Below are positions 15,603-63,240 of a stretch of DNA of 64,000 nucleotides, piece by piece; within the stretch, counting starts at the first letter, position 1, and every line of letters starts with the position of its first letter. The position numbers and the translations under genes were made by a program. The DNA comes from Crambe crambe (lineage: Eukaryota; Porifera; Demospongiae; Poecilosclerida; Crambeidae). Location of the stretch: assembly GCA_963924555.1 (NCBI GenBank), contig OZ004583.1, positions 930,001-994,000 of the forward strand. The letters are read 5' to 3'. The notes beneath the pieces were generated by a model, which had not been told where the DNA came from, made no database searches, and worked only from the letters and a program-made list of their open reading frames with translations.

Positions 15603-18600
15603 TTAAAAATCAATATCTCGTTTTGTTAGTTTTCTTCTTGTTCCTTCTGCGTCCTTGCTAGTACTACCATCGTTCTTGGTGCTCTTAGGTTTTGGGATTG
15701 TTACTGGATCTTGCTGTGCTCTGTTAGCAGTCTCTGATAGCTCAGGGGGAAGATGGAGTTTCTGTATGTTAGAGTGGGACGGATCATTTGATCAAGGAGA
15801 TTATGACCACAATGAATGTATAGATAGCTACTGCATTCAGCCCCTTATGTGTGCAAACATACATACATACATACATACATTCATTCATTGTACTGAGGCC
15901 ACCTACCCTTAAAGTCTTGCATACTTACTTCAATGGAGAACTTCTTTCTCTTGAGTTTGAAGGCAAGGTCAAGTGTTTCAGGATGGTAGCTGGTCAGGGA
16001 GTTCAAGCAAGGCAACTTGTGAATGTGAAACAACCCTACGACAAAGTAAACATCCTCTTGATGCAGTAAGGTACGTAAGGTATGCATGTAAGAGTGTTCA
16101 AGGGCATTGCTGAGTGCTTACCATGGTAGTCTCTAAAGGCAGGATTGGTTTCTTTATCAGACCCAGCAAAAGACTCGAGTCTCACAGCCCCATCACACAG
16201 TCTTCGCAGTCGGTTGATATGGAGACTATCCTACCAGAAATACAAGCAAGAATTGTTTTTTTTTTCTTTCCCCTTGCTAGCTAGAGTTCAAAGTCCATGG
16301 TATATTATTGTACCTACCTGCATGAGGTGGGTGGGGACAGTCACTAAGGCAACAGCATAAGCCCTCCTGAGGAGTGCCCTGAGACAATGGAAGAATTGGA
16401 GAAGGGAGTGGGAGGAGTCGGTCATGCCTCCCTGGTCCAGCCAGAGGGGTGAGCCGAGGGACTGCAATCCTAGTCTAAGAACATTTCTCTGCAGGAAGAG
16501 GGAAAGAAGGGTCTTTAGTGTATGTTAGACATTATGTACTTTACCTGTTTTGAAATGGCTTCATCGACTGAAAAATGATTTCTCTGGATCACCTCCTCAA
16601 TCTCCTCCTTTAGGGCGATGTAGAGTTCCTGAGCTGAACTGTTACGGAAGGAAAATTTAATGTGTAAGCACTTCTCGGATCAACAAGATATCCTGTGATT
16701 TCAGGAACTGGACACACTTAGGACCCTCTTTTGGAGGTCATTTTGTACACAATAGTACAGCAGATTGTCCTTTGTTGAAAGGTTTGTCCTCTTTCAAAGT
16801 GTCCTCTATCGAAGGTTCCACAGTATAGTTACATACCTCATTCCCGTCTTGCCCAGTGCATTGAAATGCACTGTATCCACAGCTTCAGTTCTTGTTTCTG
16901 ACATCCTGGCAGTCAAGTCAAATGAGTGACCAAACCGATTGCTGAATGATGACTGAACCTTGGGGAGGCTTTGGTAGCGCCAGGCTATCTTCATGGGGTC
17001 CTCCTCTGAGGGCTCTACTTCATCCTTCTTCGTGGACGGCTGCTCTCTGCCCTTCTGGAAGGCTTGGGGAGAATTCCTTGCATCATCAACTGATCCCGGA
17101 AGATCCTACAATTAGAAGAATTATCTATCATTGGTGAATTAGAAATCTAAGGTCAGGGCAGTAACATTCCAGTTGGCAGATATTTTACCAATAATAATTG
17201 CAACTAACTATTAATAAAATACTACAAAAAGAACTAGTTATGTGATAAAGTTGCTTGAGAATCGCTAAAATAATTGAATACTATTTTTAAATCTGTCACA
17301 CGCATAAACTATACCACTATCGTCTACTGCTAGTCCGTGAACAGGTTTCCACTCCCCTTTGTCCTTCCTTTTATTATAAAATGTTGTCTTAAAGGATCCC
17401 TTGGAGTTGAACACAAAGATACGATAGTTATCTTCGTCTGTGACATACACATAACCATCAACATCAAGTGCAATACGTAACGGTGAGCTCAGATGCTTTG
17501 AACCAAATACTCTCACGGATTCTCCCCCAGCCGTGAAGACTTGGACGCGTTGGTTCCCCTTATCAGCCACGAATATTTCTCCAGAGCTATCACAGGATAT
17601 ACCAGATGGACACTTCAAACAGTTCTTTCGCCAGCCTTCCCCCCAATAGTACTAGAAAAGGTGAGGTCAGAGTTGAAGACTTGAATACAATGATTGCTGA
17701 AGTCAGTCATGTAGATCTTATCGTTGTATGTATTGTAAGCAATACACATTGGTATACTCGGTTTGTTAATGTCGGTACTAACGGCAACGATGAATTCACC
17801 TCTTGCTGTGAATTTCTGAATGCGGTGATTGCCACCGTCTGTTACCAGAATATTCCCATTACTGTCCACTGCCACATCATTGGGACACTTAAACTGCCCT
17901 TCGCCGGAACCTTGTGTGCCAAAGGAGAGAGGTTTCTCTCCACTAGGACTTAAAACTGTTACACAATGTCTATCTCGCTCAGTTACAACCATTTCCCCCC
18001 TTGCATTGAGGACTATTCCATATGGTTGGTTTATTTGATCGAAAGTTTTGAAGGGGAAATCTAAATGCATGACAGTCGACTTTATACACAGGAAAAAAGG
18101 ACTTCCTCTGATGTGCTGATCTTCGACTTTAACAGATAGCTGATGCCTCCCTTTGGTAGTCGGACAATAACTAATTTCATATTGACCCTTAATTTCTCTT
18201 CTCTTTACGTTGCCTCTCAATATGGCACCTGTTAGCTCAGATATAAGTTCACATTGAAATAACGCTTTGCAAGGTTCACCCTTGAAGTCGCTAGCTTGTA
18301 CGATGGCAGTAGATTCCTCTCCAACCACAGCTACCTCCAAACCTTTACCTGTTGCATGGCATTGTGAGGGGTCAGGACTTCCTGGTACACCTATTCGTCC
18401 ATAGTTCTGACACATTGCAGTGACATCAGTTGAAGCTATGAATTCTATGTCAGCTTCTGTGTTAGGCTTTAATACGTCTGGTTGGAGTGTAGCAGTCAGT
18501 TCCTTCACTTGCTTGATTATGGTTGTCATCACTTCTTCCTGACTACTTGTCTCCAGGCTCTCAAGACAGCTGCTCAACTTGGCCATGATGGTCTCCAACT

Positions 18601-19766
18601 TGTCTCTTTGGACTGCAAGGCCTTTCAGCTTCTCCTGAGTCCTTTGGTGTAGCTGGCTTATCAACTTGGTCTCTCTGACATCGATGATTTCATGGAGTTG
18701 TTGGGTGGTACGATGTATATCTGCTTCAGTAGCCGCTTGCTGGTCAGATATCTCTCCACAATGCTCATCGAAATGTGCCAATGCTTTCTTGACAGTTGTG
18801 AGTTGCTTCCCCAGTGATGGGGTCATCTCTCTCTTGTACTTCTCGTAACATGAGGTGATCAAGTTGTACTCGTGGCTGAGATGTTTCTGGCCTTGGAGTG
18901 TACAGTAAGAGCAGATTAGCTCCCCACATGTCTCACAGTACAGCTCCAGTTCTCTATCAGCATGAACAGAGCAGACTTTCTTTGAAGGATTGGGGCGTGT
19001 CACGTCACCTTCCACCCTCTCAAGTTGCTCAATTGTTGCTTCTTTTCGAGACATTTCTGACATAAACACATACAGGTCAAGCAAGGTGGGGGTGTGCACA
19101 ACGCTAAAATCATTTTGAATCATAATATGATTGTCATTAATTTTGTCAGCAGAATAACACATGAATCTATTTATTCTCTTCAGTAAATATCATTAATTAT
19201 ACATGTTAGCATCATTGATAAAGACTTTAGGATTCTGTCTACCACTAACCTCAGTGGTTCCAGTCTACTAATTTCAGTGGCCTGACCTTCAGAATATCTT
19301 GGGTCTTCTCATTGGCGCTGGCCAGAAAGAGGGTGTGGCCACACATGACTCCTTCTGAGAGGAAGTACTTGAAAAGCAGACGAGAATATGATCCAGCAAC
19401 ATCCTCCTCTGAAGCATAACAATATACATTGTACAAGTTTCAGTCCCGCATACTAATTAAGAAGGGGATGGGGAGGGGTGGATGAAAGGGAGGGAATATC
19501 TTCAGGCTTTACTACACATACTAGGGAATGACATACTTACCTAATAGCAAGACAGTACCCACAGCTAGACCTCCACCTACGATAACATGATTATACCATG
19601 TATGTGTCAACCAATCAATGTGACCACACCTTTGTTTCTTACCTAATAGAGAGTCCATGGAGGGTACCCCACTAGAGACAAGGAGCTGGGCATTGTACAG
19701 AGACGGTCTAGAACCTCTTGGGTGTGAAGGCTTGTTGGTTACTTTCTTCTTGAAACTGGAAGCCAT
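15603..19766 (-). CDS. ELP4: Elongator complex subunit 4
   Basis: Nine exons: 19766-19643, 19576-19541, 19408-19287, 17105-16837, 16638-16545, 16488-16318, 16230-16122, 16035-15929, 15761-15603; 396 aa (human 424), all in phase. ELP4 is a RecA-like subunit of the Elp456 ring of Elongator, which supports tRNA wobble-uridine modification. Diagnostic segments are [64 protein letters not shown]. An in-frame ATG at 19865 exists, but 19766 fits the family better and lies below the promoter motifs. The 2.2-kb intron (17106-19286) holds a TRIM/NHL-like gene on the same strand; the intron at 16639-16836 holds a MITE. Confidence 0.94.
16701..16826 (-). mobile_element. MITE-like element, pogo-type ends
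   Basis: On the minus strand it begins TACTGTGGAACCTTCGA and contains AGAGGACA and CAACAAAGGACAA motifs, ending near a GTGTCC segment. CAGTGGAACCTC-like termini are typical of pogo/Tigger-derived MITEs. It shares motifs with 8480-8582 and 55664-55822. Confidence 0.5.
17265..19063 (-). CDS. TRIM/NHL-like protein without RING, nested in the ELP4 intron
   Basis: The ATG at 19063 (or 19054) opens about 480 codons. In order: B-box ([18 protein letters not shown], then CSYC and HLSHEY), a coiled coil ([20 protein letters not shown] region), a filamin-type Ig repeat ([17 protein letters not shown] to HIRGSPF), then NHL beta-propeller repeats ([20 protein letters not shown]). This is the TRIM2/TRIM3/TRIM71 layout, but no RING is seen at the N-terminus and only about 220 bases separate it from the ELP4 exon. 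The frame breaks near 17635 in a G6 run; one extra G would join it to the last NHL repeats ([19 protein letters not shown]), ending at 17265. The break may be an assembly error or a real truncation. Family members are ubiquitin ligases or RNA-binding regulators; without a RING, ligase activity is doubtful. Confidence 0.75.
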
Positions 19767-22578: not shown

Positions 22579-41375
<18,797 letters not shown>

Positions 41376-59151: not shown

Positions 59152-59793
59152 TCATTTGCAAGTACTGGTACTGCTGCTGCATCTCTTTGGACGTATCTTC
59201 ATTTGAATCTTTGTGAACTTGATGTGCCTTGATCCATTGTACCAGCTAGGAGTAAAAGATGTATAGTTGATATTGAGGGTGGCATAAGAGCAATTATTAT
59301 ACCACCATCCACTTCCAGTGTATACAGCACAGTTGCCACTGTAGTTATCATTATCACGGTCTGGAGTGCTGAAATACCTTCCATTATGATAGGCCATTGA
59401 GTCAAATGTACCACCCACTCCTTGGCCTTGTCCAATGCTTAGTTGATAGTTGGTTTCAGCCCCACCCACTTTGAACAGTTGATAGGTCCAAACAATGGAT
59501 GGTTTGGGTCCATTCCCAAGTTCAATACGTAGTTCCACATCCTCTCGTGTGGTGAGGCAGTGAATCTTTTCCAGTCCGTACCAAAATTCTCCCTCCAGAT
59601 CTCCAAAGCCACTCACATAGTCAGTCCAATTGCGATAGAAGTTGACAGAGCCATTGATCCTACGCTGGATGACCAACCACTTCCCTCCAGCTGTTTCCAT
59701 GTCACAGCGAGCCAGATTGCCTACTTGAAAAACATTGCAGACATCCACTATTTCATAACTGCCAGAATTTGCTGTTGGCACTAATTCCTTTAC
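59152..59793 (-). CDS. Second fibrinogen-related exon, alternative ectodomain
   Basis: 214 codons ending at 59152, starting after the acceptor GTTGTAG at 59794 in the same phase as the exon at 60839. The first half is nearly identical to the 60204-60839 exon; the C-terminal half differs strongly (YHNGRYFSTPDRDNDNYSGN, WWYNNCSYATLNINYTSF). Glycosylation sites (NGS, NWT, NCS, NYT) remain. It has no TRAF exons of its own, so it is probably an alternative last exon of the gene at 60204-62306, or a partial duplicate. Confidence 0.75.
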   Translation of the reverse strand, partial: VKELVPTANSGSYEIVDVCNVFQVGNLARCDMETAGGKWLVIQRRINGSVNFYRNWTDYVSGFGDLEGEFWYGLEKIHCLTTREDVELRIELGNGPKPSIVWTYQLFKVGGAETNYQLSIGQGQGVGGTFDSMAYHNGRYFSTPDRDNDNYSGNCAVYTGSGWWYNNCSYATLNINYTSFTPSWYNGSRHIKFTKIQMKIRPKRCSSSTSTCK

Positions 59794-59863
59794 CTACAAC
59801 ATTTAAGGATCCACATTAATTTATCATACATGTAGCTACTTGTGATCATAGCTGTATACATAC

Positions 59864-59964
59864 CTGGCAGCAGTCACGGAATCCAAGAATAGAATCTTTC
59901 TTCAGTGAAGTGTTTTCTTTGTTGTTGTAGAAGTAAAAAGACAATAACAAAATACCAATGGGCA
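59864..59964 (-). pseudogene. Partial copy of the transmembrane exon end
   Basis: Repeats the end of the receptor's exon 2 (YFYNNKENTSLKKDSI, LGFRDCCQ, donor GTATGT at 59863). Homology to the intact exon stops at AAAATACCAAT, inside the membrane span, so the fragment cannot encode an anchor alone. Confidence 0.8.
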
Positions 59965-60203
59965 TGCTCAATTGTAATTGCGATAATAGATTTCTACAGC
60001 CTTGGGGCTAGGCTGTAGAAATTAATGTTTGCAAACTGCTGTAGTATTTAGATGTTATCGCTCTAGGATAGTGTTGACCATCAAAAAATGGATAATCATA
60101 TGATTTTAAAAAAACAATAACAAAAATTCACTCCCATAATAATTATACTAATGCACAATCACTGTTTTTAGTTTGAGTTCACATATGTAGTTTTGATGAG
60201 ACA

Positions 60204-62306
60204 TCATTTGCAAGTACTGCATCTCTTTGGACGTATCTTCATTTGAATCTTTGTGAACTTGATCCATCTTGATCCATTGTACCAGTGAGAATAAGGATTT
60301 GTATAGTTGGGCTTGGTATTCAGGTGGGCTAGAGAACAAGCATTGTGCCACCATGCACCTTCTCTCTCTACAGCACAGTTGCCACCATGGTTATCATTAT
60401 CACGGTCTGGAGTGCTGAAAGATGCTCCATTGCTATGGGCCATTGCATCATATGTACCACCCACTCCCTGGCCTTGTCCAATGGTTAGTCGGTAGTTGGT
60501 TTCAGCCCCACCCACTTTGAACAGTTGGTAGGTCCAAACAATGGATAGTTTGGGTCCATTCCCAAGTTCAATACGCAGTTCCACGTTCTCTCGTGTGGTG
60601 AGACAGTGAATCTTTTCCAGTCCGTACCAAAATTCTCCCTCCAGATCTCCAAAGCCACTCACATAGTCGGTCCAATTGCGATAGAAGTTGACAGAGCCAT
60701 TGATCCTACGCTGGATGACCAACCACTCCCCTCCAGCTGTTTCCATGTCACAGCGAGCCAGATTGCCTACTTGAAAAACATTGCAGACATTCACTATTTC
60801 ATAACTGCCAGAATTTGCTGTTGGCACTAATTCCTTTACCTACAACATTTAAGGATCCACATTAATTTATCATACATGTAGCTACTTGTGATCGTAGCTG
60901 TATACATACCTGGCAGCAGTCACGGAATCCAAGAATAGAATCTTTCTTCAGTGAAGTGTTTTCTTTGTTGTTGTAGAAGTAAAAAAAAGACAATAACAAA
61001 ATACCAATAAACAGCAAAATAGAACCATTTCTCCTTAACTGGACCACCATATTCCCACTCTCTCTCCGAAACTGAACTGCCATATCCTTGGCCTCTTTCC
61101 TTAACTTGATAGCCATATCCTTACTCTCTCTCCTTAACTCAGCAGCTATATATTTCTTTAACTCGGCAGCCATATCCTTACTTTCTCTCTTTAACTCAGC
61201 AGCCATATTGTCACTTTCTTTCCTCAACTTGACTGCCATATCGTCACTTTCCTTCTTCTGATTCTCAGCGGCTGACTGTAGATTGTCTTGCAATTTGATA
61301 ATAGTGTTGAGAACCTGATGGAAATGTGCCTTATCATCCTGCTCATGTGCTCCCATATCTTTTCTCTTCATCTTCATATTACACCCGATCCTCTCATACT
61401 TGCATGATATCACAGTGTGTGCACAGTCGTTTTCAAGATGCTGTTTTATCTCGGCACGTTGCATGCTATCAGGACAGTCAGGATTAGGGCAAGGAACTGA
61501 TTTCTTTTCACAAATGTCATCATGAATGTCCATTATGTTGGCATATGTATCCTTCTTTCCGCAATACTGACATTTGTAAGCTCTGTTCACACACTGTTCA
61601 GTTAAATGTTTATCCAAATCTTTCCTCGATATCATCCGTACTTTATTGTCTTCTTTGCATTTGTTGGGGCAGGGAACTTTGCAGTTGTTCATAATATGTT
61701 CCTCTAGTGTACCAACAGTTCCTTCCCATCCACATCCTTCCTTAGCACAATCACATTTGACACGGAGAGCTTTAATTTCTCTTTTACCTAGTGAGTAATT
61801 GTCGAGTGCATGAATTGTATGCAATAACCATTCTAAATAGTGCACACCTGGTAGAACCCACACTATTAAAAGAGCTTGAGAAGAAGCTCATATATATTTA
61901 TACTTGAAGAAGGCTCTCAAAGAGAAGCTTATAATAACTTTGGCCTGGCTGGTATACCTGGCTGATTTGCGTATTTTGAGGCACTTCAAAGCTTCTGTTG
62001 GTATGTACTAAATATTGTAGGTCTTCCCCACCCCAGAATGGGTGCACACCATTTGTACAGTGGTGTGACATGTTTCATGCATTTCTCTGACTTACTCTTT
62101 GCATCCATCAAGTACTGTGGCTGCTCCATCCTGCAGTTGGGACAAGGCTTCCCTTTGCCATGTTTATTTAGACAATTTTGACAGAATAGCCTGCCACACT
62201 CTCCATGCTGCCATGGGTCTCTAGCTATTGCTAAACAGATCAAACACTTTAGAGCATCATCTGGTTCAGACACAAAATTACACTCATACCCAGAACAAGC
62301 AGCCAT
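60204..62306 (-). CDS. RING/TRAF zinc-finger transmembrane protein with fibrinogen-related ectodomain
   Basis: Three exons: 62306-62096, 61787-60910, 60839-60204; 574 aa, phases match (AAAG A|GTAAGT; CCAG|GTATGT). Exon 1: RING-like (CLICLAIARDPW, GECGRLFCQNC, KPCPNC), but the usual zinc-ligand His after CG is Arg. Exon 2: TRAF-type zinc fingers (CDCAKEGCGWEGTVGTLEEH, CPNKC, CQYCGKKD, CPNPDCPDSM, CKYERIGC), a linker, then an 11-residue coiled-coil repeat (RKESDNMAAEL, KRESKDMAAEL, RRESKDMAIKL, RKEAKDMAVQF, RRESGNMVVQL) and one membrane span (ILLFIGILLLSFFYFY). Exon 3: a complete fibrinogen-related domain with CDMETAGGEW, the calcium-site DRDNDN and the CAV..CS pair. Positive residues before the span put TRAF inside and fibrinogen outside. 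Likely role, by inference: ligand-sensing receptor coupled to ubiquitin-type signalling. Confidence 0.85.
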
Positions 62307-62920: not shown

Positions 62921-63240
62921 AGGAAAAAAATATTTATTCTAAATAAAAAAGAGAAGTATAGGGATGGCTGTGTGCGGTTCAAAAAAGTTCAGCAACAAGA
63001 GAGTGAACTTCAGTCAAGTAACCCCTTACCCATCACCAACTACGAGGTAACTATTCCTACTTCACTCCCATGCATGATGAGATATAATTTAAGGGAGTGA
63101 AGTAGGAATAGTTACCTCGTAGTTGGTGATGGGTAAGGGGTTACTTGACTGAAGTTCACTCTCTTGTTGCTGAACTTTTTTGAACCGCACACAGCCATCC
63201 CTACTTCTCTTTTTTATTTAGAATAAATATTCTTTCCTTT
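62921..63240. repeat. Long near-perfect inverted repeat
   Basis: Arms 62921-63069 and 63093-63240 are about 148 bases each and nearly perfectly complementary, with a 2-base indel near 62958 and a spacer of about 23 bases. The arms hold no obvious gene. A foldback element or a transcribed hairpin are both possible. Confidence 0.92.

Follow-up and report, generated by a model that had tools for sequence, protein, structure and literature searches.

The stretch of DNA analysed here (the window, 64,000 nucleotides) comes from the sponge Crambe crambe and corresponds to positions 930,001 to 994,000 of contig OZ004583.1 (C5 in the coordinates below) in NCBI GenBank assembly GCA_963924555.1. Near its end lies a predicted gene in which a TRAF-type module is joined through a membrane span to a fibrinogen-related domain (FReD). 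The fusion gene occupies window positions 62306-60204 on the minus strand and consists of three exons separated by two GT-AG introns, with an open frame of 574 residues. It is followed by a partial duplicate. The features, in window coordinates, are as follows.

62096..62306, minus strand: exon 1, with the start codon and a RING-like finger (residues ~18-62); the same exon is present in copies 2 and 3 (see below)
61788..62095, minus strand: intron 1, GTAAGT...TAG, 308 nt, versus 316 and 350 nt in the two paralogs
60910..61787, minus strand: exon 2, terminating in ...ENTSLKKDSILGFRDCCQ; TRAF-derived through KKD, sequence of a secreted-type FReD gene from GFRDCCQ
61333..61782, minus strand: TRAF-type zinc fingers (residues ~73-222), matched by the zf-TRAF profile and by the TRAF6 and TRAF4 fingers in PDB
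61033..61332, minus strand: predicted coiled coil with 11-residue repeats (residues 223-322)
60970..61026, minus strand: single membrane span predicted from hydropathy (residues 325-343)
60840..60909, minus strand: intron 2, phase 0, GTATGT...TTGTAG, 70 nt (75 nt in both copy 2 and copy 3)
60204..60839, minus strand: exon 3, with the FReD and the stop codon; a mosaic of a fusion-type 5' end and a secreted-type 3' part
59864..59965, minus strand: partial duplicate of the exon-2 tail, with its own ATG (59965), retaining the splice donor (MPIGILLLSFYFYNNKENTSLKKDSILGFRDCCQ) and most of the span
59152..59793, minus strand: second FReD exon, intact (Pfam E 2.8e-53), in phase with exon 2 of the fusion

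As many as 708 splice combinations keep the frame, and the model was chosen by splice consensus, homology to TRAFs and FReDs, and the match to two paralogs. A Pfam scan of the spliced protein identifies a complete FReD (Fibrinogen_C, E 1.3e-50, residues 359-567) and TRAF zinc fingers in two stretches over the cut-off (zf-TRAF, E 2.2e-16). RING models are weak, with one of four exceeding its curated cut-off (PF00097, 21.8 bits versus 21). Thus, the profile check proposed in an earlier sequence-only reading of the locus came out positive for the FReD and zf-TRAF but weak for the RING. Among solved structures, the top match of residues 1-283 is the RING and zinc fingers of TRAF6 (5vo0, E 5.7e-12). 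As that reading had stated, MATH is missing: the scan of the 574-residue model yields no match to this domain, and the same scan detects MATH in the TRAF relatives P0002, P0003, L020, L021 and L023 discussed below. The 11-residue repeats of the coil, also reported there, are real. Six motifs begin at residues 248, 259, 270, 289, 300 and 311, and the 11/3 periodicity is matched by only 4 of 5000 shuffles. A single hydrophobic segment exceeds 1.6 in the 19-residue Kyte-Doolittle mean (residues 325-343, peak 1.85). Five of the six N-glycosylation sequons lie beyond this span, the sixth is at its edge (324) and none is found in residues 1-323; a Lys/Arg-rich stretch precedes the span. These features favour a type II orientation, with the N-terminal TRAF part predicted inside and the FReD outside the cell. 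The order RING-like finger, TRAF zinc fingers, 11-residue coil, one span and complete FReD in one gene, as originally proposed, is therefore confirmed at the level of gene prediction.

The fusion is not a singleton. Within the 80 kb of C5:985001-1065000, two further intact copies share its three-exon structure, splice motifs and phases; they lie 9 and 47 kb from the window gene. Copy 1 (window) maps to C5:992306-990204, copy 2 to 1001811-999606 (604 residues) and copy 3 to 1039382-1037218 (579 residues). The ratios of nonsynonymous to synonymous rates (dN/dS) over the whole gene are 0.39, 0.33 and 0.37 for copies 1-2, 1-3 and 2-3, respectively. In the same order, they are 0.58, 0.66 and 0.40 for the RING exon, 0.38, 0.19 and 0.19 for the zinc-finger region, 0.59, 0.42 and 0.48 for the coil, and 0.33, 0.31 and 0.35 for the FReD. 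At the level of coding sequence, these values show three intact copies under constraint. A search of the genome with exon 2 gave 137 rows, with 134 of 269 candidates scored; the only matches extending to the exon's end lie at three places, all on C5. Of the zf-TRAF candidates, 150 of 388 were scored, so that a fusion to a remote TRAF could be overlooked. An assembly artefact as the source of the fusion is unlikely, because the three exon-2 sequences recur letter for letter in another contig layout (926,123 bases), although the reads behind the two layouts may not be independent. P0121, from another contig, is a fourth version of exon 2 and shares its tail; it is absent both from the sequence retrieved for this genome and from the matches of the exon-2 search. 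The copy number of the fusion TRAF exon may differ between haplotypes.

The locus could also be read as two transcripts, the first encoding a truncated membrane TRAF that stops within the short intron and the second, downstream, an unrelated FReD, given that exon 2 continues for 15 residues past the donor (VCIQLRSQVATCMIN) before a stop codon. However, three intact paralogs share the splice motifs, and donor and acceptor are consensus-like and identical in all of them, making separate transcripts very improbable. Furthermore, the FReD exon, separated from the TRAF exon by an intron of 70-75 nt, has neither an early start codon nor a leader of its own (the first Met is at codons 32, 30 and 27 in the three copies), and the tail of exon 2 is itself FReD-gene sequence.

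The source of that tail is found in the surroundings of the fusion genes, which are embedded in a FReD gene array. Of 81 FReD matches across the genome, 34, many of them fragments, fall in C5:989188-1054476. In ordinary array genes, the first exon begins with a signal-peptide-like sequence (MSILSIVIATFLLAHAQG..., by eye), ends in a GAxFxDCCQ-type motif (e.g. GAGFRDCCQ) at a phase-0 donor and is followed by the FReD exon. C5:985001-1065000 (L047-L054) contains 18 such leaders, 17 of them on the minus strand and at least two broken. A promoter-like motif of the CTATAAAA type is located upstream of genes in this tandem array of leader exons, FReDs and many broken copies (21 matches, 20 on the minus strand and one on the plus strand).

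The TRAF half derives from a group of TRAF genes that includes a large cluster on C8, in a genome with at least 150 zf-TRAF matches. Among the 27 C8 loci read, five have a span between the coil and the C-terminal domain (L020, L021, L023, L024 and L026; one has two spans), two have a C-terminal span and 20 have none; the frames were picked by script, and in a few short or broken ones (L022, L029) a span could be overlooked. A Pfam scan of three of these five loci (L020, L021 and L023) and of P0002 and P0003 confirmed MATH in each. Together with P0037, for which MATH is taken from its Pfam listing, P0002 and P0003 also combine a span with MATH. The span is nearly the same as that of the fusion in P0002 and P0037 and looser in P0003. 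P0002, P0003 and P0037 come from contigs outside this assembly on which some C8 genes also occur in identical form; they are absent from all fetched loci, and the best places of P0002 in the genome are partial. We take their contig set to be from the same or a very near species because P0007, P0013 and P0004 from this set occur letter for letter in the C. crambe genome. The suggestion that a transmembrane TRAF is an invention unique to the fusion is thus not upheld, since TRAF relatives in the same genome carry a span between coil and MATH. By sequence comparison, the novelty is the exchange of MATH for the FReD, and the membrane span predates the fusion. The joint can be located with some precision. 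P0003 reads NENTSLKKD where the fusion reads NKENTSLKKD, and continues NENTSLKKDIVSA at the place where the fusion reads NKENTSLKKDSILGFRDCCQ. TRAF sequence extends to KKD and FReD-gene sequence begins with GFRDCCQ, which places the joint within ~4 codons, because the fused exon still ends in the GFRDCCQ of the lectin gene. The most plausible scenario is a recombination event that brought a TRAF gene, its span already in place after the coil and before MATH, into the first exon of a secreted-type FReD gene; MATH would have been lost from the TRAF gene, and the signal peptide from the FReD gene. More generally, membrane TRAFs seem to recur in this genome: the C8 loci L020, L021, L023, L024, L026, L025 and L043 have, between them, coil-MATH spans and C-terminal spans. 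Relatives with other combinations include P0097 (RING/zf-TRAF with a C-terminal span and no MATH match), P0078 (zf-TRAF with a span followed by repeats) and P0092 (a hydrophobic stretch, a coil-like part and a FReD).

The two halves of the fusion have different histories in copy 1. Measured in the zinc fingers, the synonymous distance is 0.06 between copies 1 and 2 and 0.13 between copies 1 and 3; for the FReD, the corresponding distances are 0.58 and 0.62, and the C-terminal part of the domain reaches 1.11 in the first pair. Between copies 2 and 3, zinc fingers and FReD give similar distances (0.15 and 0.13, respectively). Over FReD codons 1-40, copy 1 shares 98% identity with the partial duplicate, 91% with copy 2 and 87% with copy 3, compared to 78% and 75% with the secreted-type neighbours s1009 and s1016 and up to 83% with other array members. 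Codons 41-80 are alike in all sequences compared. From codon 81 to the end, copy 1 is 94-98% identical to s1009 and s1016 versus 62-81% to copies 2 and 3. In a max-descent permutation test, for which the two secreted-type parents (s1009 and s1016) were chosen as the closest relatives of copy 1, none of 20,000 permutations reached the observed value for any of the six parent pairs, and the switch begins at exon nucleotide 151-186. Consistently, in the FReD tree copy 1 groups with s1009 and s1016 (support 100/98), apart from copies 2 and 3. Copy 1 is thus a mosaic, and its sequence pattern points to gene conversion in which sequence from the array replaced the half of the FReD that binds ligand. 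Under the scenario of a single fusion, the zinc-finger part would subsequently have remained near constant and the coil would have varied in length, while half of the copy 1 FReD was converted. Entropy across the 18 intact array FReDs is highest at residues 514-558 (1.15-1.30 bits versus ≤0.66 elsewhere), which form the ligand side of the domain. The ratio of nonsynonymous to synonymous variation (pN/pS) is 1.17 at residues 498-558 versus 0.45 in the core for a nine-row clade, and 0.69 versus 0.24 for all 18. The raised ligand-side values may reflect either diversification or relaxed constraint, two causes that are inseparable in these data.

The partial duplicate lacks the TRAF part and is 89% identical in DNA to the window fusion gene over 866 bases. 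It is also a mosaic according to the same test (4 and 0 of 20,000 in two runs). Its FReD may belong to a short separate gene or serve as an alternative last exon, and both arrangements keep the frame. In the latter case, the TRAF trunk would be spliced to either the 60839-60204 or the 59793-59152 FReD, giving two receptors per gene. Splicing to either acceptor preserves the phase, and the alternative product has an open frame of 576 residues. Most of the differences in the second FReD fall on its ligand side (DNA identity 83% and 82% in the last two segments versus 98% in the first two). However, the second FReD has its own donor, most of a span and an ATG (59965), so that it may be a small separate gene or a dying copy, and we consider alternative last exons unlikely.

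TRAFs are cytosolic adaptors that need a receptor. The fusion family is probably a type II membrane receptor, with a conserved TRAF tail inside the cell and an exchangeable FReD head, that arose as described above and would signal in the manner of TRAFs; its transcript, topology, ligand and signalling output are what we infer from the gene model. The ligand of the FReD would be multivalent, probably a glycan of microbial or self origin. Clustering by this ligand, together with the coil, would gather the RING/zinc-finger modules beneath the membrane, and the gathered modules would assemble or recruit ubiquitin-chain activity, alone or paired with RING-active TRAFs. In TRAF6, it is RING dimers that make the protein active (PMC5702613). 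TRAF-type signalling would thus start without a separate receptor. A broader proposal is that the fusions represent a new class of innate receptors, in which the TRAF adaptor is the receptor tail and the head is varied by conversion from a secreted-lectin array feeding both soluble and signalling formats. We put it forward tentatively and rate its chances at somewhat below even.

Several observations weigh against the receptor model. The spliced model was derived solely from genomic DNA, and the hydropathy of the predicted span is modest (1.85). In two comparisons, dN/dS is near 1, namely, in the span and stalk of copies 1-3 (1.06, just 5 changes) and in the C-terminal FReD of copies 2-3 (0.98, 18 changes). 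The TRAF halves may resemble each other through conversion and, therefore, the three copies do not amount to three independent tests. Conversion of the head is seen in two sequences, the window copy and the partial duplicate, and not in copies 2 and 3. None of the seven aligned rows has the canonical RING His: five have Arg (Arg39 in the window copy, CGRLFC) and two Gln. The RING fold prediction for exon 1 has low confidence (mean predicted local distance difference test score of 44.7, from a shallow alignment of 7 sequences). Owing to the replaced His and the low-confidence fold, E3 ubiquitin-ligase activity of the fusion RING appears doubtful, and the protein may consequently depend on a partner with an active RING, or else act as a brake. 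In the latter case, the fusion would be a decoy with an inactive RING, binding ligand and TRAF partners without making ubiquitin chains and thereby damping signalling or holding TRAFs at the membrane. In line with this possibility, the three fusions and two relatives have Arg instead of His at the canonical position for a zinc ligand, and the Pfam scores of the RING are at or below the cut-off. On the other hand, replacement of the His is common to the aligned TRAF rows and may signify a variant zinc site, given that His34, three residues before Cys37, is retained in five of the seven rows. Besides, heterodimers can function, with TRAF5 providing ZF1 to TRAF6 (PMC5702613). A decoy role is thus rather improbable.

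Also unfavourable to the receptor model are changes in the ligand pocket. The acetyl-pocket His, located directly after the second Cys, is gone in all three copies, being replaced by Ser532 in copy 1 and by Phe in copies 2 and 3, and the calcium loop of copy 3 is three residues shorter. The replaced His corresponds to His415 in FIBCD1 and is the acetyl-pocket His of FIBCD1 and ficolins (PMC3908420). Because of these substitutions, an acetyl ligand is not to be assumed, and a specificity for acetylated ligands inherited from ficolins and tachylectins is not supported. The calcium ligands Asp510 and Asp512 (8 and 6 residues before Cys518 of the P-side disulfide) are kept in copy 1, and the spacing of the calcium-site Asp residues is the same in copy 2. 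A complete FReD is also common to the fusion and FIBCD1-type receptors. A further reading is an endocytic or adhesion receptor like FIBCD1, with the FReD capturing ligand for uptake and the TRAF tail acting in ubiquitin-dependent sorting rather than immune signalling. However, FIBCD1 has a short tail, a coil outside the cell and an intact acetyl pocket, whereas the fusion has more than 320 residues of signalling module, a coil before the span and a changed pocket; we regard this role as quite improbable.

The fusion shares the order of RING-like finger, zinc fingers and coil with TRAF family adaptors, of which TRAF6 (5vo0) is the closest solved, but it has a span and a FReD in place of the MATH/TRAF-C domain and its RING His is replaced. 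The span TRAFs of C8 and P0002, P0003 and P0037 likewise have zinc fingers, a coil and then a span, but end in MATH. Secreted single-FReD lectins (ficolin/tachylectin-like, including the C5 array) share with the fusion the FReD exon, the phase-0 joint and the seven residues preceding it; unlike the fusion with its TRAF and span, they have a signal-peptide-like leader. Membrane-bound NLRs of sponges, as reported in PMC12909245, are also normally cytosolic immune proteins with an added span, but represent another family and lack the FReD. No TRAF and FReD architecture, and no TRAF with a span between coil and MATH, was found in the open-access literature searched (titles and abstract starts), with subscription papers and preprints mostly outside this scope. 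Within it, the earlier impression that this domain order matches no described family holds. Two papers on sponges refer to both TRAFs and fibrinogen genes, treating them separately (PMC6208332, PMC8242945), and TRADD-N-expanded organisms, Amphimedon among others, are noted in PMC8195603 as having no matching MATH expansion. A receptor made by domain fusion is a known kind, and this version of it is new. If true, a TRAF with MATH swapped for an anchored recognition domain would mean that receptor and adaptor can merge into one gene. The preserved joint would reveal the route, a single recombination inside the first exon of a lectin gene, and the mosaic FReD would tie soluble and membrane-bound recognition through a shared donor array.

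We also looked for other fusions, in this genome and in other species. None of the 120 matches listed, out of 126 to the whole model, combines zf-TRAF and Fibrinogen_C in one protein. This negative is weak because gene calls in that protein set are made exon by exon; the fusion itself is visible there just as exons (P0001, P0121, P0122 and P0123). A TRAF near FReD genes on C1 was considered as a second fusion and rejected: its frame has a MATH-like end (by eye) and lies ~6 kb from one FReD exon, with no sign of a TRAF-FReD joint in 9.5 kb. Eight FReD loci (L001-L008) have no TRAF-like frame of ≥110 residues within 3.6 kb each (by eye), most of the 47 FReD matches outside C5 being unread.

The window contains further features. 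A near-perfect inverted repeat at 62947-63215, ~640 bases upstream of the fusion gene, has two 132-nt arms that are 93% complementary and 5 nt apart, as well as further outer arms, and looks like a hairpin-type mobile element. The frame at 17615-19189 is of the B-box/filamin/NHL kind, judging from the Pfam listing of its match P0125, and belongs to another large expanded family, with 2406 similar proteins at E ≤0.001, several of them on the 926,123-base contig. The sole Rfam match over the gathering score in the window is a tRNA gene at 39925-39996 on the plus strand.

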